64,000 nucleotides of DNA, taken from Anaerolineales bacterium (GTDB lineage: Bacteria > Chloroflexota > Anaerolineae > Anaerolineales > UBA11579). A program made the position numbers and the translations under genes. Location: the NCBI GenBank assembly GCA_025808555.1, contig CP075526.1, forward strand, positions 310,001 to 374,000. Reading direction: 5' to 3'. Each line of letters begins with the position of its first letter. Position 1 is the stretch's first letter. Below, piece after piece: positions 13,549 to 24,380 of this stretch. The notes under the pieces are model-generated. The model was not told the origin of the DNA and searched no databases. It worked only from the letters and a program-made list of their open reading frames with translations.

Positions 13549-14745
13549 ATGCGTACATTACGCTGGTGGCAACATGCCCTTTTGGCGGCGCTCCTTACGC
13601 CAGCGCTTTTTGCCATCTTCACGGTCTACCAGTTCAGCCTGCCCGACCCTGAAGCGTTCAGCCCCCAGGTATTCTTCGTAGCCGCTGTCCTGCTGCTGGC
13701 TGGAGCCGTGCGCATGGGCCGCCACCCCCTGCGCTGGGTCTATTGGCTTATCGTCGCAATGTGCCTTCTCATCTTTCTGGACGAGATCGCCTACGGCGTT
13801 GAACTGCTGGACTTCCAGCCCATTTACATTGAACGCTACAACTTCTATATACGCGATCTGCACAGCTCCATCGGCTTCCTCCGCGGCGTGCTGGACGAAT
13901 GGCTGCCCGATGCCGGCTGGAACCCGGCCCTGTTCGCCACGCTGATGCGCATCAGCGGTGTTGTGGCCCTTGGCCTGCTGGCCATGTGGGCGCTGGCCCG
14001 CCACAGGCTACAGGCGGCCGGCGAGCCTGCCTGGCAGGCGCGCATTCTGCGCCTCACCCTGTGGGCCAGCCTGCTGACCAGCCTGGCCACCCTAAGCTTC
14101 ATGCTCTGGCTGCCCGGAGACCCCAAGAACGCGCTCGTGCTCGGCCTCTCACCCACCCGTCTGGCTATGGTGGCGGGCTTGACCGCCGCAGCGGCCCTGC
14201 CCGCTTGGCTGCTGCGGCTGCCGCAGCGTTGGCCGGCCCTGCAGGCGCGCATCAACGCCTGGTTAGGCCGCCGCGCCCTGCGGGTGGCCGCCAGCCTGCT
14301 GCTGGCGGCCGTGGCGCTGGCCGCGCTTTGGTATCAGCTCAACGCCAGCTTCACGTTCCTGCCAGACGATCTGGTGCGCCTGGAGCGCGTGATGCCCGTG
14401 GTGATATGGGCCATGGCGCAAGCAGCTTGGCTGTGGCTGGCCGTGCAGATCTGGAGCGGCCGCCTGCGCACGCCTGCCATCATCATGCTGCGAGATGTGC
14501 TGCAAGCCTTCGGCCAGCACCCCACGTTCATTTATGTGGCAGCCGCCCTGCTGGTGATCTTTGTCGCCCAATTGATCGACCAGAATTATTTGCCGCTGGA
14601 CGATATGCTCTATACGCCCAACTATCGTATTCAGCATTGGGCGGGCTGGACCGAGGAAACGTTGGAGATGATCGGCGCGTTCTTGTTTGCCATTGCCGCC
14701 TTTGTCATGCCCGGCAAACCTGCCGGACAAAAAAGCCGCCGCTAA
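13549..14745 (+). CDS. Polytopic integral membrane protein, unknown function
   Basis: A 398-residue protein with about nine to ten hydrophobic helices (for example residues 10-28, 40-57, 64-82, 138-157 and 175-193) and no catalytic motif I recognise. A loop at about 85-125 between helices is acidic and Tyr-rich. A TAGAAT box ends 9 nt before the ATG, so the message is probably nearly leaderless. It is monocistronic: its stop codon sits in the loop of a strong terminator hairpin. Convergent with the ubiquitin-like operon. Confidence 0.7.
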   Translation: MRTLRWWQHALLAALLTPALFAIFTVYQFSLPDPEAFSPQVFFVAAVLLLAGAVRMGRHPLRWVYWLIVAMCLLIFLDEIAYGVELLDFQPIYIERYNFYIRDLHSSIGFLRGVLDEWLPDAGWNPALFATLMRISGVVALGLLAMWALARHRLQAAGEPAWQARILRLTLWASLLTSLATLSFMLWLPGDPKNALVLGLSPTRLAMVAGLTAAAALPAWLLRLPQRWPALQARINAWLGRRALRVAASLLLAAVALAALWYQLNASFTFLPDDLVRLERVMPVVIWAMAQAAWLWLAVQIWSGRLRTPAIIMLRDVLQAFGQHPTFIYVAAALLVIFVAQLIDQNYLPLDDMLYTPNYRIQHWAGWTEETLEMIGAFLFAIAAFVMPGKPAGQKSRR

Positions 14746-14758
14746 TGCGGCGGCTTTT
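14731..14758. terminator. Bidirectional rho-independent terminator with stop codon in the loop
   Basis: A perfect 12-bp stem, AAAAGCCGCCGC / GCGGCGGCTTTT, with loop TAAT. The TAA in the loop (14743-14745) is the stop codon of the membrane-protein gene. The T/A flanks serve both strands, so it can also end the minus-strand operon whose last stop is at 14769. Confidence 0.9.
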
Positions 14759-14768
14759 TATATAGCCA

Positions 14769-15911
14769 CTAGTCTTTCAGCTTGATGCGCGGCCGCTTGC
14801 CAAACGGCTTGCGGCGCGGTTGCGCCCGGCCGCCCGCCTTCGGGTTACTCGCACTGGCGCCTTGTCGCATGCCGCCCACGATCAGCGGCAACGCTACCAG
14901 CAGCGCCAGGCCGCCCACAATGGCCGCAAACAGCGGCCAGGCAGCAGGCTGTTCGACCTCAGGCACCAGACCACCGGGGTTGTATCGAGCTTCGCTCGAT
15001 TCGCCGTTGGCTGCGCCAACGGCATCCGCTCCAAGGCTGACGCTCAGCGAGCGGTTGACGCCGTCACGCAGCGTAGCGGGCGAGATGTAGCTGAGCTGGT
15101 ATTCACTCTGCAGGGCGTACGAGTATGCAGCGTACAAGCGCGTCAGGCTTTCTTCATCCTCCGCATAACCATACTGCCCGCCAGACTGCGCCGCCAGGTC
15201 TTGCAGGCCGGGCTCGTCAATGCCGCTCATGCGGTCGCCGCCCGGTGTGCCCAGGCCCACGGTGGAGATGGACGCGCCTTCATCCTGCACCCGCGCCACC
15301 ACATCCGGTGCATTCCATTGGCTGGAGTTATCCAGACCGTCGGTCAACACAATGATGGCTTTGCGCCCCTGCACGCCTTCCAGTCCATCCAGCGCGGTCA
15401 TCAAGGCGTTGAACATGGCGGTGTCATCATCGCCCTGCAGGCTGTCAATGGCGCTGTGCAGCGCAGCCTGGTCAGAGGTCAGCCCCTGCACGGTGCGCAC
15501 CTGGGTGTTGAATGAGATCAAGCCGGTCTGGTCTTGCGGACGCATGCGCTCCACAAACTGGTGCGCGGCCGCCTTGGCCGAGTCCAGCTTGCCGTCAGGG
15601 TTCATGCTGCCGGATACATCCATCACCAGCATAGTGGTCAGGGCTTCTACTTCACCAAAACCCTCGATCTGGTCCAGCGCGATGGGCTGGCCGTTCTCCA
15701 TAATGACGAAGCGGCTCGGGTCCACCGGATACGGGTTGCCGTCCGCATCCGTCACCGAGACAAAGAAGGTGACCCGCGGGAACTGCGAAGTATCCACCTG
15801 GGTGATGCGCACCTGCACGCTCTCCTCCTGCGCCAGCGGCGCGAAGGCCAGGCCGGACAGCAGGTTGAGCGCCAGAATGATGCCAAGCGTTAAACGAGTG
15901 AGTGTCTGCAT
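14769..15911 (-). CDS. Secreted/membrane-anchored VWA-domain protein, last gene of ubiquitin-like operon
   Basis: A 380-residue protein with an N-terminal signal peptide (residues 1-28) and a beta-sandwich-like segment (30-90). A von Willebrand factor A domain runs from about 91 to 265, with an intact MIDAS (DVSGS at residues 98-102 and TDG at 190-192). A transmembrane helix follows at about 325-347, then a basic C-terminal tail ending PRIKLKD. The same PRIKLK tail ends the E2 of this operon. Residues around 296-311 are encoded by two hairpin repeats (see 14984-15023). It starts 2 bp after the FHA gene, with AGAGG five nt before the ATG. Role: metal-dependent adhesion or assembly, inferred. 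Confidence 0.85.
   Translation of the reverse strand: MQTLTRLTLGIILALNLLSGLAFAPLAQEESVQVRITQVDTSQFPRVTFFVSVTDADGNPYPVDPSRFVIMENGQPIALDQIEGFGEVEALTTMLVMDVSGSMNPDGKLDSAKAAAHQFVERMRPQDQTGLISFNTQVRTVQGLTSDQAALHSAIDSLQGDDDTAMFNALMTALDGLEGVQGRKAIIVLTDGLDNSSQWNAPDVVARVQDEGASISTVGLGTPGGDRMSGIDEPGLQDLAAQSGGQYGYAEDEESLTRLYAAYSYALQSEYQLSYISPATLRDGVNRSLSVSLGADAVGAANGESSEARYNPGGLVPEVEQPAAWPLFAAIVGGLALLVALPLIVGGMRQGASASNPKAGGRAQPRRKPFGKRPRIKLKD
14984..15023. repeat. Two adjacent hairpins inside the VWA coding sequence
   Basis: The pair is ATCGAGC-TTC-GCTCGAT at 14984-15000 and a perfect 9-bp stem with a 3-nt loop (GCCGTTGGC-TGC-GCCAACGGC) at 15003-15023. On the coding strand the loops read GCGAAGC and GCGCAGC, the very stable GCGNAGC mini-hairpin class. 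They are translated in frame as a short linker between the VWA domain and the membrane helix. Confidence 0.75.
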
Positions 15912-15913
15912 GC

Positions 15914-16771
15914 TTACCTCTTCTCGTGATAGACAAGTTGAGTATTGCCAACCCGAATGGCCTGTTCATCCAGCAGGCGGGCTTGCTCCACCTTGCGCCC
16001 GTTGATGAAAGTGCCCTTCTGGCTCATGTCACGAATATTCATATGGGTGTCGCCGCCGCTCAGCATGGCGTGCTGCGGGTCAATGTCCGGGTCGGGCAGC
16101 ACGATGTCTGCCTTGAGGGCGCTGCTGCCCACATAGGCGGTTGGCCCGTTGGCATGGATGAACTTATCTAGCACGAATTCCGTGCCTTTGAGCTTGCCGC
16201 TGACCACTTCCAGCCAGGCCCGCGAGAGCAGCAGCACCACCAGCGCAATCAGCGCGCCGATGGCCGCGCCCAGCAAGCCCAGGCCGATGGCTTTGCCGAT
16301 GAGCGCATCGGCAAAGCGCTCACGCGCCAGCTCCAGCAAGGCGCCGCCGATGGCGCCGCCTAGCAACCCGCCCAAGGCGGGCTTCCACATCTGAGCGCCG
16401 CTGCTGAAGCCCAGCCCGGCGCCAATGAAGCCGCCGAACACAGCCCAGCCCAGCGCCCGCGTCCAGCTCTCGCCGCCCAATACCTGGAAGGCGGCTTCGG
16501 CCAGCGGCAGGCCAATCGCACCGCCCACCAGGCCGAATAGGCCATTGGTGAGGCCGGCGCGCACGGCATAGCCAGGGCTGCGCAGGGCGGCGCCCTCGCT
16601 CATGCCGATCAGCGCGCCGATGCAAAAGCCGATCAGCCCGCCCACCACCACTTCGCTGAGATAAACATTCTGGGTGAACGAGAGGCCCAGCACATTGCTG
16701 GCCTGCCAGCCGATCAACCCGCCAATTGCCCCCAGCAGGGTGTAGTAATACAAGCGTGTCATCCGGTTCAT
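15914..16771 (-). CDS. Membrane protein with C-terminal FHA domain
   Basis: A 285-residue protein. Residues 8-185 are Gly-rich, with repeated GGxIG patterns forming about six transmembrane helices (glycine-zipper-like). Residues about 195-285 are a forkhead-associated domain. Several phosphothreonine-binding residues are replaced: the Gly-Arg of strand 3-4 is Gly215-Ser216, the Ser before His-Ala is Asp231, and the Asn of the STNGT motif is Lys252 (SQKGTFING). The fold looks intact but classical phosphopeptide binding is doubtful. It overlaps the JAB gene by ATGA and precedes VWA by 2 bp. Confidence 0.85.
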   Translation of the reverse strand: MNRMTRLYYYTLLGAIGGLIGWQASNVLGLSFTQNVYLSEVVVGGLIGFCIGALIGMSEGAALRSPGYAVRAGLTNGLFGLVGGAIGLPLAEAAFQVLGGESWTRALGWAVFGGFIGAGLGFSSGAQMWKPALGGLLGGAIGGALLELARERFADALIGKAIGLGLLGAAIGALIALVVLLLSRAWLEVVSGKLKGTEFVLDKFIHANGPTAYVGSSALKADIVLPDPDIDPQHAMLSGGDTHMNIRDMSQKGTFINGRKVEQARLLDEQAIRVGNTQLVYHEKR

Positions 16772-17688
16772 TGCTTATTCTCCGTTTTTGGGGGCTCTTG
16801 CTCAGGCAGAGCCTGAGCTGGATGTTCAGGCTTCGCCTGAATATCCGATTGCGGTTTGACCGCGGGCTTCGCCTGAGCGTCAGTTTGCGGTTTCACCGCT
16901 GCTGGCTTCGCCTCGGCTTGCGGCTTCGTCACCTTGGCTTTGGCGCTAACCGTCTTGACTCCTACCGGCCGCGTATCCGTGATCTCTGCGCGGCTGGGCT
17001 CAGCCTTAGGGCTGGCCGGCGGCTGCGTTGCAGATGCAGCCGGTTTTGGCCGCGGCACGGCCCGCAAGTTGGTCCAGTCCACTACGCTCTCCATGCTGCT
17101 GGAGTGCAGCTCATAAAAGCCGCTGTAACGACGCGGCGAAAGCTCGCCATCCTTGCGTACAAATAAACCTGCCTGGCGTGTATGCGGCTCCACTACCAAG
17201 GCCACCTGCCACGCCTGCGGAAAAAAGTGATCGTGCAGCCAGGTGTCGTAGCCTGAAAGAAAGATGCCCATACGCGGGTGGGTGTGATACCAACCCACCA
17301 CGCACTTGTTCTCGTATTGCTCCTCAAGGGCCGAAAGCATCGCCACCTGGCTGTCATGCGTGAAGGTGAGGAAGGTGCTACCCGAGCGCACTTGCTGCGC
17401 CGGCAGCAGCGCCTCCACCACCACGAACTCGGTGCCCGCGCGCCCATCCCGGCACCAGCGCCCAGCCAGCCAGCCGCCCACTTCGTTGTCCATATCGCTG
17501 GCGGCGTGCAGCGCGATGGTCTTGATCACGCTCTGCGTGAAGAAGACCGGCAGCGCCGGCTGGGCCGCATCCTCGCCCGCCGCCAGCCAGCGCTGAGCGC
17601 GACTTAACGGCAGGCGGGCGCGGCGCGGGGCGCCTAGCGGGCTTTGGAGTCCGCCGGGCTTATTGGGAGTGGAGGTGGATGTGCTCAT
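16768..17688 (-). CDS. JAB/MPN (JAMM) metalloprotease, candidate deubiquitinase of the operon
   Basis: A 306-residue protein. Residues about 47-200 are a JAB/MPN domain with the complete JAMM motif: Glu69 in DNEVGGWL, and His135-x-His137 with Asp148 in HTHPRMGIFLSGYD. In ubiquitin systems such zinc proteases trim Ubl precursors or remove Ubl from targets. The C-terminal 95 residues are a Lys/Pro/Gln/Ala repeat tail built on hairpin-forming DNA. I chose the ATG at 17688 (STSTSTPN follows); another ATG at 17754 directly abuts the Ubl stop and would add 22 residues read through a hairpin. Overlaps the FHA gene by ATGA. Confidence 0.9.
   Translation of the reverse strand: MSTSTSTPNKPGGLQSPLGAPRRARLPLSRAQRWLAAGEDAAQPALPVFFTQSVIKTIALHAASDMDNEVGGWLAGRWCRDGRAGTEFVVVEALLPAQQVRSGSTFLTFTHDSQVAMLSALEEQYENKCVVGWYHTHPRMGIFLSGYDTWLHDHFFPQAWQVALVVEPHTRQAGLFVRKDGELSPRRYSGFYELHSSSMESVVDWTNLRAVPRPKPAASATQPPASPKAEPSRAEITDTRPVGVKTVSAKAKVTKPQAEAKPAAVKPQTDAQAKPAVKPQSDIQAKPEHPAQALPEQEPPKTENKQ
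16800..16911. repeat. Cluster of hairpins in the 3' end of the JAB gene
   Basis: Successive short palindromes: GCTCAGGC-AGA-GCCTGAGC (16800-16818), TTCAGGC-TTC-GCCTGAA (16825-16841), GCGGT-TTG-ACCGC (16851-16863), GGC-TTC-GCC (16865-16873), GCGGT-TTC-ACCGC (16887-16899) and GGC-TTC-GCC (16903-16911). All are in frame and encode the low-complexity Lys-Pro-Gln tail with near-repeats of AVKPQ.D.QAKP. Confidence 0.8.
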
Positions 17689-17704
17689 GGCGTTGGCCTT
17701 GCGC

Positions 17705-17747
17705 TGTCCGGGTGGCCATGTTGCGAATGCAACATGACCACCCGACA
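17705..17747 (-). other. Intercistronic hairpin between Ubl and JAB genes
   Basis: An imperfect long stem (GGGTGGcCATGTTGC / GCAACATGaCCACCC) with loop GAAT and no U-run. It lies in the only sizeable gap downstream of the free Ubl. It could stabilise the 3' end of the upstream mRNA and uncouple Ubl output from JAB output; this role is inferred. Confidence 0.55.
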
Positions 17748-17754
17748 GCAGCAT

Positions 17755-18021
17755 TTACCCGGCGGTGACGTCAGCCGTGATCATTAGGCGGTCGTCGGCG
17801 GGCACACCAGCCGCTTCCAGGGTCTCGTCCTCTTTCAGCTCGCGGCCCAGGGCCTTGCTGTCCAGGCGGTAGCCCATCGGGCGGCCGTCAGGGCCGGTGG
17901 TAGGCAGCTCCAACGTGGTGGCCAGCTCCGGGATGAGTTCCTTCACTTCCACATCATTGGGCACCTCGGCGGTGCGGCTGCCCCCAGACGGCAGAACTAC
18001 GGTTACAGGAATGTCAGGCAT
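17755..18021 (-). CDS. Free ubiquitin-like protein (Ubl) ending in Thr-Ala-Gly
   Basis: An 88-residue beta-grasp-like protein with the YukD/EsaB-like ubiquitin pattern: two N-terminal beta strands (VTVVLPSGG, SRTAEV), a helix around 28-40 (KELIPELATTLEL), then a central block and a final strand RLMITADVTAG. The last residue is Gly. A co-linear 88-residue copy forms the N-terminus of the neighbouring E2, where the same TADITAG is followed by more protein; the end of the free Ubl thus coincides with a conserved boundary, as expected for a conjugatable C-terminus. A strong AAGGAG precedes the ATG. It is the likely modifier of this system, although it lacks a Gly-Gly. Confidence 0.85.
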   Translation of the reverse strand: MPDIPVTVVLPSGGSRTAEVPNDVEVKELIPELATTLELPTTGPDGRPMGYRLDSKALGRELKEDETLEAAGVPADDRLMITADVTAG

Positions 18022-18057
18022 GTCTTAATCTCCTTTTGCAAATATGCGAATTTGGAT

Positions 18058-18906
18058 TCACTTCAGTTTGATGCGTGGCTTCTGCTTGGCGGGCGCAGCT
18101 TTCTTCAGATGCACACGCTCGGGGCGCAGCAGCTCACGCGTATCCACAGGGAAAAATTTGGGATTCTTTTTACGGTAGGCCCGGCTCCAGCGCGCCGCTT
18201 CCGCGTCCCACGGGAACGGTGGCTTGGTGGGGTCATCGTGAAAATTCTTGTACTGCACCATCTCACCGATCATCAGCACCAGGCGGTCCAGCGAACGGCT
18301 GGCCGTCCACCAGGCCGCGTCCACACACACCGTGCCGTTCAGGTGGTTGATGTTGGGGTGCCACACCGGCGTCAGCCACTTCATGCCCGGCCAGCGCTGC
18401 GGATATTGGTTGTGCAGATAGATCTCGACCTGGTGCTTGTCGCCCAGCATGGGCTCGCCCTTGTGATTGACCGCGATGACGCCCTTGCACTTGTAGGTGA
18501 CGATGTAGGTCTCGGGCGGCATTTTGGGATTGGCCGAGATCGCCTTGAACTCGATCAAGTCGCTCTGCGCGGCCAGCTCCTGCATGCGCTGCAAATCAGC
18601 CTTCAGGCGGCGCATGCGCGGGCTTTCGCCCAGCTTGACCGCGCCGGCGGTGATGTCGGCGGTGAGGATCAGACGGTCTTCCGCCGGCACCTCAGCGGAC
18701 GCCAGCGTTTCGGTCTCCTTCAGCTCGCGGCCCAGGGCCTTGCTGTCCAGGCGGTAGCCCATCGGGCGGCCATCCGGCCCCACTGTGGGCAGGCCCAATA
18801 GCGAAATCAGCTCGACCACCAGTTCACGCACGGGGGCGTCATCGGGCAGCTCGGCTTTGCGGGCGCCGCCGTTGGGCAGGATGATGGTCACTTCAATGTC
18901 AGCCAT
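18058..18906 (-). CDS. E2-like ubiquitin-conjugating enzyme with fused N-terminal Ubl
   Basis: A 282-residue fusion. Residues 1-88 are a Ubl closely similar to the free Ubl. Residues about 95-240 are a UBC-fold E2 with the signature HPN at 183-185 and the catalytic Cys194 in NGTVCVDAAWW, at the spacing found in eukaryotic E2s. A typical E2 core without its own Ubl is about 150 residues. The C-terminal basic tail ends KPRIKLK, almost the same as the VWA protein's end. The start at 18906 is supported by GAGGAG 8 nt upstream. It would accept Ubl from the E1 as a thioester and work with the RING protein. Confidence 0.9.
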   Translation of the reverse strand: MADIEVTIILPNGGARKAELPDDAPVRELVVELISLLGLPTVGPDGRPMGYRLDSKALGRELKETETLASAEVPAEDRLILTADITAGAVKLGESPRMRRLKADLQRMQELAAQSDLIEFKAISANPKMPPETYIVTYKCKGVIAVNHKGEPMLGDKHQVEIYLHNQYPQRWPGMKWLTPVWHPNINHLNGTVCVDAAWWTASRSLDRLVLMIGEMVQYKNFHDDPTKPPFPWDAEAARWSRAYRKKNPKFFPVDTRELLRPERVHLKKAAPAKQKPRIKLK

Positions 18907-18923
18907 ACAATGCTCTCCTCAAC

Positions 18924-19787
18924 TCAATTCTGGAAGGCGTGCGGCACTTGGCACACGCCCGTGATCTCCCAGCAGTCTGCGTGGTGCCAAGTCTTGCAGA
19001 CCTTACAGATCTTGATCCCGCGCGCATCCCGCTTGGTCACCGGCTCCAGGCAATACGGACACACATGCCGCTCCTGCGCGCTGAGTGTGATGCCGCTGCC
19101 GCGCGTTCGCTTGCGGGCCGGCCGCGCTGAGCGCAGCTTGCGCGTGGACGGGGCGGGTGTAAAAAAGCGTGACACGCTGGCACGCGCCCGCGTCAGAAAT
19201 GAAGGCGCCGGCTGGCTGCGCCGCGGATGCGGCGTGGCAGCCGCCACGCTCACTCGCGGCCCTTGTGCGGCTCGCGGCTCCGGCCGCGCAGGCGCCGATC
19301 GTGGCGGTGCCACGTTCACTTCCACTTCTTCACGTGGTTCCACCATGACGGTGCGGCGGCGGGGCGCCCAGGCGACCTGGCCTGCGGCCACCGCCAGGCC
19401 CAACACCGTTAGCTGGATGGCGGCATCCAGCGGCGTGGCGATCGCATAGCTGCGCAGCAAATTCAGGCCAACGAAGCCCAAGGTGATCGGGCTCAGCACC
19501 GCCAGAGCGATCACGCCGGCAAACGCGGCGGCCGCCGCCCGCAAGGCCGGGCTACGCCCGGCCAGTACGCGGCGGCTCATGAAACTGGCCGCCAGGCCGA
19601 TGCCGATAATGACGACGAACTTGAGCAGAAATGGCGAAAAGGCAGTCGGCAGCACAAACAGTAGGGTCAGCCCCAGCCCCACCAGGGTAGCGAACAGCAC
19701 GCACAAGGTGATACGCCCAAGCGCGCTTTCCACGAACCTGCTTTCATCTCCCAATAAAAATCGTCTCATCGCTATCGCATGTGTCAT
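18924..19787 (-). CDS. Membrane protein with C-terminal RING-like (Prok-RING) zinc finger, candidate E3
   Basis: A 287-residue protein. Residues about 20-140 hold four hydrophobic helices; a basic, Pro/Ala-rich linker follows. The last 48 residues form a binuclear zinc finger of pattern C-x2-C-x14-C-x2-C-x3-H-H-x2-C-x6-C-x3-H, including CPYC, CKVC and HHADCW. The HxxCW element is typical of the prokaryotic RING fingers described next to bacterial E2 and JAB genes. I take ATG at 19787, 1 nt after the E1 stop; TTG at 19796 and ATG at 19769 are alternatives, and none has a clear ribosome binding site. It would anchor conjugation at the membrane. Confidence 0.85.
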   Translation of the reverse strand: MTHAIAMRRFLLGDESRFVESALGRITLCVLFATLVGLGLTLLFVLPTAFSPFLLKFVVIIGIGLAASFMSRRVLAGRSPALRAAAAAFAGVIALAVLSPITLGFVGLNLLRSYAIATPLDAAIQLTVLGLAVAAGQVAWAPRRRTVMVEPREEVEVNVAPPRSAPARPEPRAAQGPRVSVAAATPHPRRSQPAPSFLTRARASVSRFFTPAPSTRKLRSARPARKRTRGSGITLSAQERHVCPYCLEPVTKRDARGIKICKVCKTWHHADCWEITGVCQVPHAFQN

Positions 19788-19788
19788 G

Positions 19789-21408
19789 CTAATCAATCAA
19801 GTGCACTCGGCCGCTGGCCGGGGCCTCGCCCTGCACTGCCTCCCCCAGGCGCACGCGCGGGGCATGCAGGCCGGGCACGGCCTCGTCAAAGTCGTTGAAG
19901 TGCAGCGCAGCCGGCAGATCGCCGCTCAGTTCGTAGAAACGAAACTCAGCGCCGTTTGTTGCCCGCAAAATATGTAGCGGCGGCACACCCACACTCAGCA
20001 GCGTGCGCTCCAGGAAGTCCTCCTGACCAGTAATGGTATGGGTCAGGTCCACCTCACGCATTTCGCCGCAGCTGGGGCAGTGCCCGGCTTCAAAGCTCAC
20101 ATCCGAGAGCGGCTTGAGCACACGCTCCACCGTGTTGCACGCCGCGCAGTTGAGCGCCAGCACCAGCTCCTGGTCCAGCTCCAGCACCGTGTCCGCCCCC
20201 AGGTCACCGCGGGCGATCGCCAGCAGCTCGGCCAGCGTGTTGGTCTCGGCACGCAGCGGCAGCTCGGTCACATCGCCGTAGATCCAGTGGCTCTCGCACT
20301 CCGCGTCCGGCAAGTAGGCCGTGGTGTGCATGAAGTTGGTGTAGCCGTTGTAGTGCAGCACCTTGCCCGGCTCCACCGGCATGTTGTGGATCAGCTTGAG
20401 CGCCTCCTGCGACTGCATGGCGCCGATAATGGAAGCGATAGTGGGCGTAGTCGGCACCTTGCCCAGCAAAATGTTCTGGCGCGCCAGCAGAGGGCAGGAG
20501 TAGCGCATGGCCAGATCTCGGCGAGCCTGCTCGGTCAGCGTGCATTCAAAGCAGGCGCCCTCGCCCGGCACGAACACGCGCGCCAGCCCCAGCAGTTCCT
20601 GGATGGCGCCGTCCACCCATGGCTTGTTCATCCAATGGGCGAAGCGATTGACCGCCAGGCGCGCCTCGCGGTTGTCCAGGCAGCCGATGATGACGTCCAT
20701 GCGGCGGAACACGCCCAGGCCAATGTCGGTCGTGACGTCGCCGTGCAGGTATTGCACGCGTACATCCGGGTTGATGTCCACCGCACGCGCCGCGGCCAAC
20801 TGCGCCTTCTCGCGCCCGCGGTCCTTCTCGCGGAACAGGATGCTGCGGCTCAGGTTGGCCGCTTCCACCTTGTCAAAATCCACAATGTAGAGATTGCCGA
20901 TACCCATCAGGGTCAGGTTCTTGATAACCTCGTTGCCGAGCGCCCCTGCCCCCACCACCATCACGCGCGCGTTCTGCACCTTCTCGCGCTCCCACCAGCT
21001 AATGAACTCAAACGTACCCAAGCGGTCAGACTTCAGGTTGGGGATGTGCAGCGGCTTCTCTTTGGCCACCGGCAGCCGTTTGGGGCCATCGGCCGCCTTG
21101 CTCTTCTGTGCCCGCTTGGGCACCGCGGGCGGCGCCGCCTCGGCCGCCAGCTGGCGCGCCTTGAGCATGCGCGCCGAGTTGAGCTCGTTCACGAACCAGC
21201 CAACGCCTTGCTGAGCATCCAGCAGGCCCGCCTCGGAAAGGATGCGCAGCGCCTCGCGCAGCGAGGAGCGCCCGACCCCGAGCTCCTTGATGAGGTCACG
21301 CTCAGCCGGCAGTTGGCTGCCGCCGGCGTACTGGCCCTTCAACAGGCTGGCCGCAATGCGGCCAGCAATAAGTTCGGGAACGGATTTACGGGTGATCGAA
21401 TTGGTCAT
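19789..21408 (-). CDS. GntR-type DNA-binding domain fused to an E1-like (ThiF) activating enzyme
   Basis: A 539-residue fusion and the first gene of the operon. Residues 1-77 are a GntR winged helix (LPAERDLIKELGVGRSSLRE at 33-52, then the wing with GVGWFVNEL). After a Lys/Ala linker, residues about 125-345 are an E1/ThiF Rossmann domain: GAGALG at 153-158, DFD at 177-179, and CLDN at 243-246. CFEC (286-289) resembles a zinc pair, and Cys305 in RYSCPLL lies where E1 enzymes carry the catalytic Cys. A zinc ribbon follows (CAAC 421-424, CPSC 444-447), then a unique C-terminus. GntR regulators normally carry a ligand domain; here an enzyme takes its place. Confidence 0.9.
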   Translation of the reverse strand: MTNSITRKSVPELIAGRIAASLLKGQYAGGSQLPAERDLIKELGVGRSSLREALRILSEAGLLDAQQGVGWFVNELNSARMLKARQLAAEAAPPAVPKRAQKSKAADGPKRLPVAKEKPLHIPNLKSDRLGTFEFISWWEREKVQNARVMVVGAGALGNEVIKNLTLMGIGNLYIVDFDKVEAANLSRSILFREKDRGREKAQLAAARAVDINPDVRVQYLHGDVTTDIGLGVFRRMDVIIGCLDNREARLAVNRFAHWMNKPWVDGAIQELLGLARVFVPGEGACFECTLTEQARRDLAMRYSCPLLARQNILLGKVPTTPTIASIIGAMQSQEALKLIHNMPVEPGKVLHYNGYTNFMHTTAYLPDAECESHWIYGDVTELPLRAETNTLAELLAIARGDLGADTVLELDQELVLALNCAACNTVERVLKPLSDVSFEAGHCPSCGEMREVDLTHTITGQEDFLERTLLSVGVPPLHILRATNGAEFRFYELSGDLPAALHFNDFDEAVPGLHAPRVRLGEAVQGEAPASGRVHLID

Positions 21409-21432
21409 GCGCGTGGCTCTTTTGCGGTTTGT

Positions 21433-21451
21433 TGGTCAGACCACTATACCA
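21433..21451 (-). promoter_or_regulatory. Promoter and FadR/GntR-class operator of the ubiquitin-like operon
   Basis: On the minus strand an extended -10 (TGG-TATAGT, hexamer at 21443-21448) is followed immediately by the palindrome TGGTCTGACCA (21433-21443 on either strand). This fits the TGGT-N3-ACCA consensus of FadR-subfamily GntR regulators exactly. The operator shares one base with the -10 and covers the expected transcription start, a repressor position. The first gene downstream encodes a GntR domain, so autoregulation is likely. There is no convincing -35. Confidence 0.75.
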
Positions 21452-21514
21452 CAAGCCTTGGGGGAGGCCGCAGCAGGAGGCTTACAGTTCTGTTAGTAGG
21501 CCGGCCCCCACATG

Positions 21515-21533
21515 GGTACTACAATCAAGTACC
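21515..21533 (+). promoter_or_regulatory. -10 box within an inverted repeat, upstream of the HD-GYP gene
   Basis: TACAAT (21520-21525) is flanked by GGTACT (21515-21520) and AGTACC (21528-21533), a perfect 6-bp inverted repeat. It lies about 85 bp before the HD-GYP start. Promoter function is likely; operator function is a guess. Confidence 0.4.
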
Positions 21534-21611
21534 GCAGGGGAATATGGACGTCAACGAAGTGGCGCACAATGCTCCTTCTTCACCAAACCACCGAGGCTCC
21601 GGAGCAAGGAA

Positions 21612-24380
21612 GTGAACTCGCCGTCAGTAATCTCTGAGGGCGAACGGGCCATTCTGGATAGCCTGGTTGAAGGCTGCCAGGTTATCGATTCCGAATGGCG
21701 TTATTCATATCTAAATGATGCGGCCGTGGCCCAGGCGCACCGCAGCCGCTCTCAGTTACTCGGAAAAACAATGATGGACTGTTATCCGGGCATTGAGGCG
21801 ACCGCGCTGTTCGCCACTTTGCAGAAAGTGATGCAGTCAGGCAGGCCAGAACGCTTTAAAACCGATTTCAGCTATCCGGATGCTCAACAGGGATGGTTTG
21901 AGCTCAGCGTGCAAGCCTGGCGCGGCGGCTTGATGATCTTCTCATGGGAGGTGACTCAAAGCCAGACGACAGAACGGCAATTTGAAGTTCAGAAGCACCA
22001 ATTGCAGACTCTGCGCCAGGTGGATTTGGCCATCAGTTCCCACGCCGACCTGGCCGCAGTCAGTGACCGCATCCTTGACTTGGTGCTTGCCAGCACTACA
22101 GCGGATGCAGTTGACATGCTGCTTTTCGAGCCTGACCTAACATCTGGCAGCGAGATCTTTTATAAAGGCTTCCAGCCCGAGTCCGCCGCAGATTTGGTGA
22201 GCTTCCGCGGAAAGGGCATAGACAAGCGCGCCATGGACAACAGGGCCACGCTTTTTATTCCTGAGCTGGAAAGCGAGCCAGGCTTTTTGAGGCGCAAGAT
22301 GGCCCAGCGCGAAGGCTTCGTAAGCTACGTTGGCACTCCAGTGATCTCTAATGACCGCGTGATTGGCATCCTTGAATGCTTCACTCGCCAACGCCTGGAA
22401 TCTCCGCCCGAATGGCTTTCGTTCTTCGAGGCGCTGGCCGGACAAACCGCCATTGCCGTAGAAAGCAAAATGGCTCAGCTAAAAGCTGAGACCAGCAGCC
22501 AACGGCTGGCCGGCTTATTAGACACAGCCATGGATGCGATCATCACGATTGATGATAAGCAAAAGATCATACTCTTCAATCCAGCTGCCGAGGCGCTCTT
22601 TGGCTACTCGAACGCCGAGATGATCGGCCAGCCTATCAATCGCCTCATCCCCGCGCGCTTCAAGGATACCCATAACCAGTATGTCGAAAAATTCGGCCAA
22701 AGCGGCGCGACTTCAAGGCGGAAGGGCGCTCTCGGCGAGATTTTTGGCCAACGCGCAGATGGCGAGGAATTTCCCCTGGAAGCCTCAATCTCGTCTACCG
22801 AGATCAAAGGCAAACGTTTTTATTCGGTCATTCTTCGTGACATTTCAGAGCGTAAGCGAGCGGAGCAAGATCTGCGCGCCAGCGAAGAGCAGTTCACGGC
22901 CACTTTCCGGCTCAGTCCTGCTCCTATGGTGCTCACAAACCTGGCCACACAAGAAGTAATTGATGTCAATGAAGTGTTCTGCGCTTTTTCAGGTTTTTCG
23001 CGCAACGAAATAATCGGCATTAGCGCGTCCCAGCTCGGTCTCCTGGATCAAGACAATCTGCAGAAGATAACAGATCAGATCAACCAAACAGGGGCAGTTC
23101 AGAACCTTGAAGTCAGCGTTCGCATTCGCAACGGAGATTTAAAAGAGGTGTTGGCCTCAGTCACGCTGCTTGAAGTGAATGGTATCCATTGTGCACTTAG
23201 CACATTCATTGATATTACTGAACGCAATAACTCCTTGCGCCAGTTGCGCGCCACTGAGGAACACAATCTCATCCTGCTCCAGGAATCTCAGCGCCGCCTT
23301 GGCAGAACCGCCAGTCTCCGCACTATCGATAAGGCTATCATCAACAGCCTCGATCTTAAGTTCACTCTTGAAATTATCGTGGCCCAGGCGATCAAGGAAC
23401 TCGGGGTAGATGCAGCGGATATCCTGATCTACAACGAAACCACACATACACTGAATTATTTGGCGGGCCAGGGATTCCGGACATCCGCCGTTCAGAACGT
23501 CAATATTCGCCTTGGCCAGCCGTACGCTGGCCGGGTTATTTTAGAACGCAAACCCGTCTTTCTCTCCGGCCTGAGCAAACAGGAAAACTCACATTTTCAA
23601 GACGATCCTCACTTTCACCTTGAAGGTTTTGAGGAATTCCATTGTGTGCCGCTGATTGCCAAGGGGAAAGCCCTTGGTGTTCTGGAAACCTTCAGCCGAA
23701 AGATCCTGAAAACTGATCCCGAGTGGCTTGAATATCTTGAAACCCTGGCCAGCCAGGCCGCAATTGCCATCGAGAACAATCTGCTGCTCAATGGTTTACA
23801 ACGCGCCAACAACGATCTCGTCCTGGGATATGACGCAACCATAGAAGGCTGGTCTCGCGCCCTGGAACTGCGCGATCATGAAACGGAGGGCCACACCCAG
23901 CGCGTAACCAACCTCACGCTTGATTTGGCGCGCTCATTGGATTTGTCAGATGAAGAGCTCGTACATATTCGCAGAGGCGCCCTGCTACATGACATAGGCA
24001 AGATGGGCATCCCCGATCGAATACTACGTAAACCAGACAAGCTGGATGCTGAGGAATGGCAACTAATGAAGCAGCATCCAACGTTGGCCCACCGTATGCT
24101 TACTCCTATTGCCTATCTTAGGGATGCGCTCGCAATCCCGTACTCTCATCACGAAAAATGGGATGGCAGCGGCTATCCACGCGGCCTCAGCGGCGAGGAG
24201 ATCCCATATGCCGCGCGCATCTTTGCCGTAGCAGACGTATACGACGCGCTCACCAGTGATCGGCCCTACCGGAAAGCATGGTCAAGGAAAAAAGCGCTTA
24301 ACTACATAGCAGAACAGGCTGGATCTCACTTTGACCCTGAGATTGTGAAGTTCTTCCTCAAAATGGAAGACGGCCAATGA
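21612..24380 (+). CDS. PAS/GAF sensor with HD-GYP cyclic-di-GMP phosphodiesterase domain
   Basis: A 922-residue soluble signalling protein. The order is a PAS-like domain (about 10-120), GAF (125-285), PAS (295-415), PAS (420-535), GAF (560-720) and HD-GYP (735-922). The output domain has the full signature: HDIGKMGIPDRIL near residue 793 and HHEKWDGSGYPRGL near 845, so it should hydrolyse cyclic-di-GMP. I place the start at GTG 21612, with GGAG seven nt upstream; the frame runs open further 5' but that part is not domain-like. The composition is less GC-rich than its neighbours. It overlaps the next gene by ATGA. Divergent from the ubiquitin-like operon. Confidence 0.9.
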   Translation: MNSPSVISEGERAILDSLVEGCQVIDSEWRYSYLNDAAVAQAHRSRSQLLGKTMMDCYPGIEATALFATLQKVMQSGRPERFKTDFSYPDAQQGWFELSVQAWRGGLMIFSWEVTQSQTTERQFEVQKHQLQTLRQVDLAISSHADLAAVSDRILDLVLASTTADAVDMLLFEPDLTSGSEIFYKGFQPESAADLVSFRGKGIDKRAMDNRATLFIPELESEPGFLRRKMAQREGFVSYVGTPVISNDRVIGILECFTRQRLESPPEWLSFFEALAGQTAIAVESKMAQLKAETSSQRLAGLLDTAMDAIITIDDKQKIILFNPAAEALFGYSNAEMIGQPINRLIPARFKDTHNQYVEKFGQSGATSRRKGALGEIFGQRADGEEFPLEASISSTEIKGKRFYSVILRDISERKRAEQDLRASEEQFTATFRLSPAPMVLTNLATQEVIDVNEVFCAFSGFSRNEIIGISASQLGLLDQDNLQKITDQINQTGAVQNLEVSVRIRNGDLKEVLASVTLLEVNGIHCALSTFIDITERNNSLRQLRATEEHNLILLQESQRRLGRTASLRTIDKAIINSLDLKFTLEIIVAQAIKELGVDAADILIYNETTHTLNYLAGQGFRTSAVQNVNIRLGQPYAGRVILERKPVFLSGLSKQENSHFQDDPHFHLEGFEEFHCVPLIAKGKALGVLETFSRKILKTDPEWLEYLETLASQAAIAIENNLLLNGLQRANNDLVLGYDATIEGWSRALELRDHETEGHTQRVTNLTLDLARSLDLSDEELVHIRRGALLHDIGKMGIPDRILRKPDKLDAEEWQLMKQHPTLAHRMLTPIAYLRDALAIPYSHHEKWDGSGYPRGLSGEEIPYAARIFAVADVYDALTSDRPYRKAWSRKKALNYIAEQAGSHFDPEIVKFFLKMEDGQ

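Follow-up and report, generated by a model that had tools for sequence, protein, structure and literature searches.

The closest described counterparts of the operon analysed here are systems reportedly predicted by Burroughs, Iyer and Aravind in 2011, in which a YukD-like ubiquitin-like protein (Ubl), an E1, an E2 and a JAB protease are accompanied by a bacterial RING with membrane helices (Prok-RING_1). The YukD-like Ubl, E1, E2, JAB and membrane RING are common to those systems and to this locus, which we class as one of the YukD-type Ubl systems known from prediction, its E1/E2/RING/JAB/YukD core being of a kind reportedly predicted in 2011. Set against those systems, the operon appears to differ in an E1 fused to a GntR domain (GntR-E1) with a cognate operator, in a common C-terminal tail motif, and in a constant pair of FHA and VWA proteins. 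GntR-ThiF fusions were not found in the literature compared, and as far as found neither the GntR-E1 nor the common tail has been described, the 2011 paper lying outside both comparisons. The E1/E2/RING/Ub/Rpn11 operon of Caldiarchaeum subterraneum likewise holds a complete E1-E2-RING-Ubl-JAB set, although to our knowledge it has no GntR domain, no Ubl-E2 fusion and no FHA or VWA protein; its Ub, which turned up as a structural match, has a GG end once processed. Bil/Bub and CBASS Cap2/Cap3 also rely on the chemistry of bacterial E1, E2, Ubl and JAB proteins. For the E1 on its own, the closest fold, C-terminal domain included, is that of SAE2 (UBA2), which too has a short interaction motif at its terminus but, as far as we know, no DNA-binding domain; the SIM of SAE2 is flanked by acidic residues and the tail motif of the operon by basic ones. 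BirA, which joins a winged helix to an enzyme that forms adenylates, regulates its own pathway; the likeness to GntR-E1 lies in the manner of working, whereas folds and operator differ, and homology is not claimed.

The window, the whole stretch of 64,000 nucleotides that was analysed, carries on its minus strand, at 14769-21408, genes for E1, membrane RING, Ubl-E2 fusion, free Ubl, JAB, membrane FHA and VWA proteins, in that order. The preliminary description had called this a unit of seven same-strand genes with overlaps or small gaps, as the open reading frames (7/7 on the minus strand) and the family matches of all seven bear out. The terminator that it placed at 14731-14758 is seen on both strands as a hairpin at 14735-14754, common to the operon and a convergent plus-strand gene. 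The E1 and E2 active-site residues and the RING ligands that it named are present, and are invariant or nearly so across sets of 50-80 homologues. Absent from that description were the GntR domain of the E1, the operator, the common C-terminal motif and the loss of phospho-binding residues from the FHA domain. The operon is complete as a gene set, and conjugation activity is predicted from it. Our preferred reading, to which we give a probability of about 0.62, is that it encodes a self-regulated, chromosomal Ubl modification pathway at the inner membrane face, in which the E1 would repress its own operon and components would dock through their tails.

The GntR-E1 (19789-21408, minus strand; Pfam GntR 6.6e-17, ThiF 1e-53) begins with a FadR-type GntR winged helix at residues 6-76, conserved across the aligned E1s, whose PDB relatives are FadR, PdhR and Rv0494. 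Three arginines of this domain, R37, R47 and R51, are invariant in 51 aligned E1s and correspond to the residues with which FadR touches its DNA; the protein has the GntR/FadR winged helix together with its operator-contacting arginines. It lacks the C-terminal FCD/effector domain of GntR/FadR regulators and has an E1 in its place; judged from its domains, it is an E1 with a GntR winged helix at its N-terminus rather than a FadR protein of the classical type. A linker follows the winged helix, then a ThiF/E1 adenylation domain (135-371) with Cys305, then a C-terminal domain (380-505) with CxxC...CxxC that matches the E1 ubiquitin-fold region, and a tail in which the motif occurs twice, as RVRLG (518) and RVHLI (534). 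The adenylation fold, nucleotide motif and catalytic Cys of Ubl-activating E1s are all present, and GAGALG153 and Cys305, both listed in the preliminary description, are invariant in the collected homologues. The AF2 model (pLDDT 76.5) is closest to the SUMO E1 SAE2, with Z 26.6 over 299 residues at rmsd 3.8, an alignment that spans 134-497 and takes in the C-terminal ubiquitin-fold region.

Directly 5' of the E1 gene lies the palindrome TGGTCTGACCA (window 21433-21443), which 54 of 62 loci hold as an exact match at the same position. With one or two changes it is also present in six of the remaining eight, which brings the total to 60/62; L066 and L067 encode a GntR-E1 with no recognisable operator. 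FadR-type proteins recognise TGGTnnnACCA, and TGGTCTGACCA fits this palindrome exactly. Fusion and site also go together in related operons, with both present in L137, from another class, where the site lies 38 bp before the GntR-E1 gene, and both missing in L135, L136 and L138, where the E1 has no GntR domain and no operator stands near its gene. The promoter proposed earlier at 21443-21451 is a -10-like element on the minus strand, TATAGT, adjoining the operator, although a consensus promoter scan called none there; several homologous loci have clear -35 and -10 elements at the corresponding place. Position of the operator after the -10 element is consistent with repression, and the E1 is very probably, on these sequence grounds, the repressor of its own operon (predicted autoregulation). 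A single protein, whose DNA site is identified, would then couple ubiquitin-like activation to the control of genes. By analogy with BirA, we infer that GntR-E1 could sense Ubl loading. A regulon beyond the operon was rejected, since the only further exact copy of TGGTCTGACCA in the window's genome lies inside a coding sequence. In most loci an outer half-site dyad, GGTAT..ATACC, surrounds the inner palindrome (window 21425-21451), and the sequence of the two dyads suggests two nested sites with cooperative binding. The window also holds a divergent PAS/GAF/HD-GYP gene (21429-24380) whose longest-ORF start overlaps the operator, and GntR-E1 might also affect this gene in the window's genome.

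The free Ubl (17755-18021, minus strand, 88 residues; YukD 2e-12) ends in ...TADVTAG with no extension; every complete homologue ends in TAD[VI]TAG, and the Ubl of the outgroup locus L136 in ...EVTAG. As in ubiquitin, its tail runs twelve residues past the last strand, although the final pair is Ala-Gly instead of Gly-Gly, and because the TAG end is already exposed, processing would not be needed. UFM1, ATG8 and ATG12 are known to end in a single Gly. The Ubl is acidic, with a median net charge of -7. The Ubl-E2 fusion (18058-18906, minus strand; YukD 1.5e-10, UQ_con 3.7e-11) consists of a YukD-like Ubl (1-88) that also ends in TAG, an E2 core with HPN183 and Cys194, and a tail with RVHLK and a terminal PRIKLK. 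HPN183 and Cys194, likewise named in the preliminary description, are invariant among the homologues and place the protein with the UBC-fold E2s, and the PDB counterparts of the protein, for which AF2 gives a model of pLDDT 75, are E2-25K/UBE2K and other E2s. The JAB/JAMM protease (minus strand, 16768-17688, longest ORF from 17754; JAB 3.3e-8) carries EvGG...HTHP...S..D with highly conserved JAMM residues. Its start is probably Met23 (17688), since the first 22 residues of the longest ORF are not conserved; the earlier numbering of the JAMM residues as H135, H137 and D148 names the right residues and fits this start, while in the longest ORF they are H157, H159 and D170. JAB could cut the fusion protein at its internal TAG, which the fused Ubl retains.

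The membrane RING-like protein (18924-19796, minus strand) has about five hydrophobic segments, a basic linker and a C-terminal zinc finger with ligands C246, C249, C264, C267, H271/H272, C275, C282 and H286. The full ligand set claimed earlier is confirmed at 9/9 Cys/His positions, invariant or nearly so, and the order C-C-C-C-H-C-C-H, in which eight ligands follow the cross-brace arrangement, is kept in 78/78 homologues. The Prok-RING_1 match (7e-5) scores 23.1 bits against a curated cut-off of 29.1, and the protein is thus RING-like by its ligands rather than a formal member of that family. Its membrane anchoring, which the preliminary description had counted towards a membrane-directed pathway, has precedents, as bacterial membrane RINGs beside Ubl, E1, E2 and JAB genes have reportedly been described already.

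The membrane protein with an FHA-fold domain (15914-16771, minus strand; Yop-YscD_cpl 6.9e-12, FHA 1.2e-9) has a Gly-rich transmembrane part and the FHA fold at its C-terminus. The Arg that holds phosphate in FHA domains is replaced by Ser216 in 73/73 sequences and the Ser by Pro232 in 72/73, and G215-S216 and P232-Q233-H234 are near-invariant; the residues for phosphothreonine binding are thus lacking. The VWA protein (14769-15911, minus strand; VWA 1e-17) has a signal peptide, an extracytoplasmic VWA domain with a conserved MIDAS (DVSGS..T..DG), a single C-terminal membrane helix and a basic tail ending in PRIKLKD, which should, from the two hydrophobic segments, be cytoplasmic. The membrane-directed Ubl pathway envisaged earlier gains from the conserved unit, the invariant catalytic residues and the predicted membrane segments of the RING, FHA and VWA proteins; it is amended in that the supposed "E1-like enzyme" is a GntR-E1 fusion and the FHA protein is no canonical phospho-reader. 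Membrane FHA and VWA proteins, together with a Ubl of the YukD/EccD family (it resembles the EccD5 Ubl, Z 11.8), would also suit a system in which the Ubl is not conjugated and serves type VII-like secretion or signalling, with E1 and E2 as scaffolds. We regard that as highly improbable: Cys305, Cys194 and HPN are invariant, the JAMM residues conserved and the TAG end kept, and in the window's genome YukD is confined to this operon. A role in type VII secretion was rejected on the ground that the WXG100 profile has no match in that genome. A proteasomal fate was rejected in the same way, as no 20S/HslV-type proteasome-family peptidase was found there.

E1, Ubl-E2 and VWA proteins share at their C-termini the pattern [RK][IV][KRH][LIF], for example GRVHLID, PRIKLK and PRIKLKD. 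It occurs in 56 of 70 E1, 68 of 79 E2 and 62 of 68 VWA tails, whereas a shuffled tail holds about 0.05 copies, and in the RING protein a looser form directly precedes the zinc finger. Of the 866 other genes in the loci, a slightly wider pattern hits 2, namely an antisense ORF and an additional JAB gene of an operon; the extra JAB of L084 ends in RIKLG. In the background sample of the window's genome (464 kb, 470 genes), the strict C-terminal form is found in the Ubl-E2 and VWA proteins only. Further proteins of the genome with a terminal motif were considered and rejected, the DNA-pattern matches being chance or antisense (one of three examined). The tails of E1, E2 and VWA are basic, with a median net charge of +3 to +8, as would be expected of general membrane- or nucleic-acid-binding tails with no specific docking role. 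That explanation appears rather unlikely, in that the alternating aliphatic pattern stands far above shuffled tails of equal composition and is missing from nearly all other gene C-termini in the genome sample. The shared motif instead points to a common docking partner. Outgroup operons without FHA and VWA genes also have no tails, and this joint absence suggests that one of the membrane components may be the partner. An alternative candidate is the acidic Ubl, for which the SIM that SAE2 carries at its very C-terminus (PMC12687455) is a precedent. In the AF2 model the E2 tail is disordered and docked on neither Ubl nor E2. The operon thus supplies a motif that is a candidate for Ubl docking, together with a VWA input resembling a receptor.

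Under the self-regulated pathway that we prefer, E1 would adenylate the C-terminal glycine of the Ubl and move the Ubl to Cys305 and then to Cys194 of the E2; the membrane RING would steer its transfer to substrates close to the membrane, and JAB would take it off again and possibly also release the E2-fused Ubl. The E1, presumably dimeric like ThiF/MoeB, would bind TGGTCTGACCA at the transcription start and repress the operon, repression being set by the enzymatic state of the E1 (free, Ubl-AMP or Ubl-thioester) as it is for BirA by biotin. Less firmly, the basic RIKLK-type tails would bring E1, E2 and the VWA sensor onto a single docking partner, for which the FHA-fold membrane protein or, SIM-like, the acidic Ubl is the most likely choice, and an outside signal sensed by the VWA domain would thereby be coupled to Ubl conjugation. 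The fuller proposal, in which a BirA-like GntR-E1 autorepressor and basic SIM-like tails, a motif class of a new sort, assembling E1, E2 and a VWA receptor at the membrane make up signal transduction by Ubl conjugation, is tentative, and we hold its chances to be somewhat short of even.

A scan of 84,980 species genomes returned 80 loci, every one of which bears the title Chloroflexota or that of a class or order inside it. The idea that the genes form one unit came through this neighbourhood survey, the seven being kept in identical order and strand in 51 of the 52 Anaerolineae loci with room on both sides. Median identity to the window's proteins is 81% for Ubl, 71% for Ubl-E2, 65% for E1, 59% for FHA, 47% for VWA, 45% for JAB and 28% for RING. 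Cultured carriers are Pelolinea submarina and Leptolinea tardivitalis. Presence is patchy, with the operon in 19 of 61 genomes (60 relatives and the window's own) and some match in 23 of 400 genomes of the phylum, about half of the 23 having weak matches only. Such a distribution, parts shared with Bil/Bub and CBASS, and weak, generic PADLOC matches to E1-E2 and JAB profiles would be in keeping with an anti-phage operon like Bil/Bub or CBASS Cap2-Cap3, its Ubl tagging phage or immune proteins and its GntR domain a simple expression switch. We consider this clearly unlikely. In the E2 tree sequences of one family fall together, and no more than the minimum of changes is needed, which fits descent with losses; about 20 loci have the operon at a fixed site between what we take, from reading the sequences, to be rplK-A-J-L and lexA. 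Searches for plasmid or phage copies of the operon gave no match, PADLOC returned none for RING, Ubl-E2, FHA or VWA, and we know of no FHA or VWA membrane parts in Bil/Bub or CBASS. The present operon appears, unlike those systems, vertical and membrane-bound, and few other bacterial Ubl pathways likewise give the impression of an inherited, housekeeping-like function as opposed to a mobile defence. The fixed site corresponds to one large lineage, which includes L045, L048, L051, L058, L061 and L065.

A different Ubl operon is found in the same class at L135:5994-11058 and L136:8048-12639, with an E1 without GntR, an unfused E2, a free Ubl and two JAB proteins, one of them with a membrane segment, and with no FHA or VWA gene; the operon of L135 also encodes a soluble RING-like protein. 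L138, from another family of Chloroflexota (f41), has a GntR-free E1, E2-like genes and a VWA-like gene nearby on a contig too short to judge. Tandem pairs of JAB-like genes occur in the operons of L084, L089, L092 and L093.
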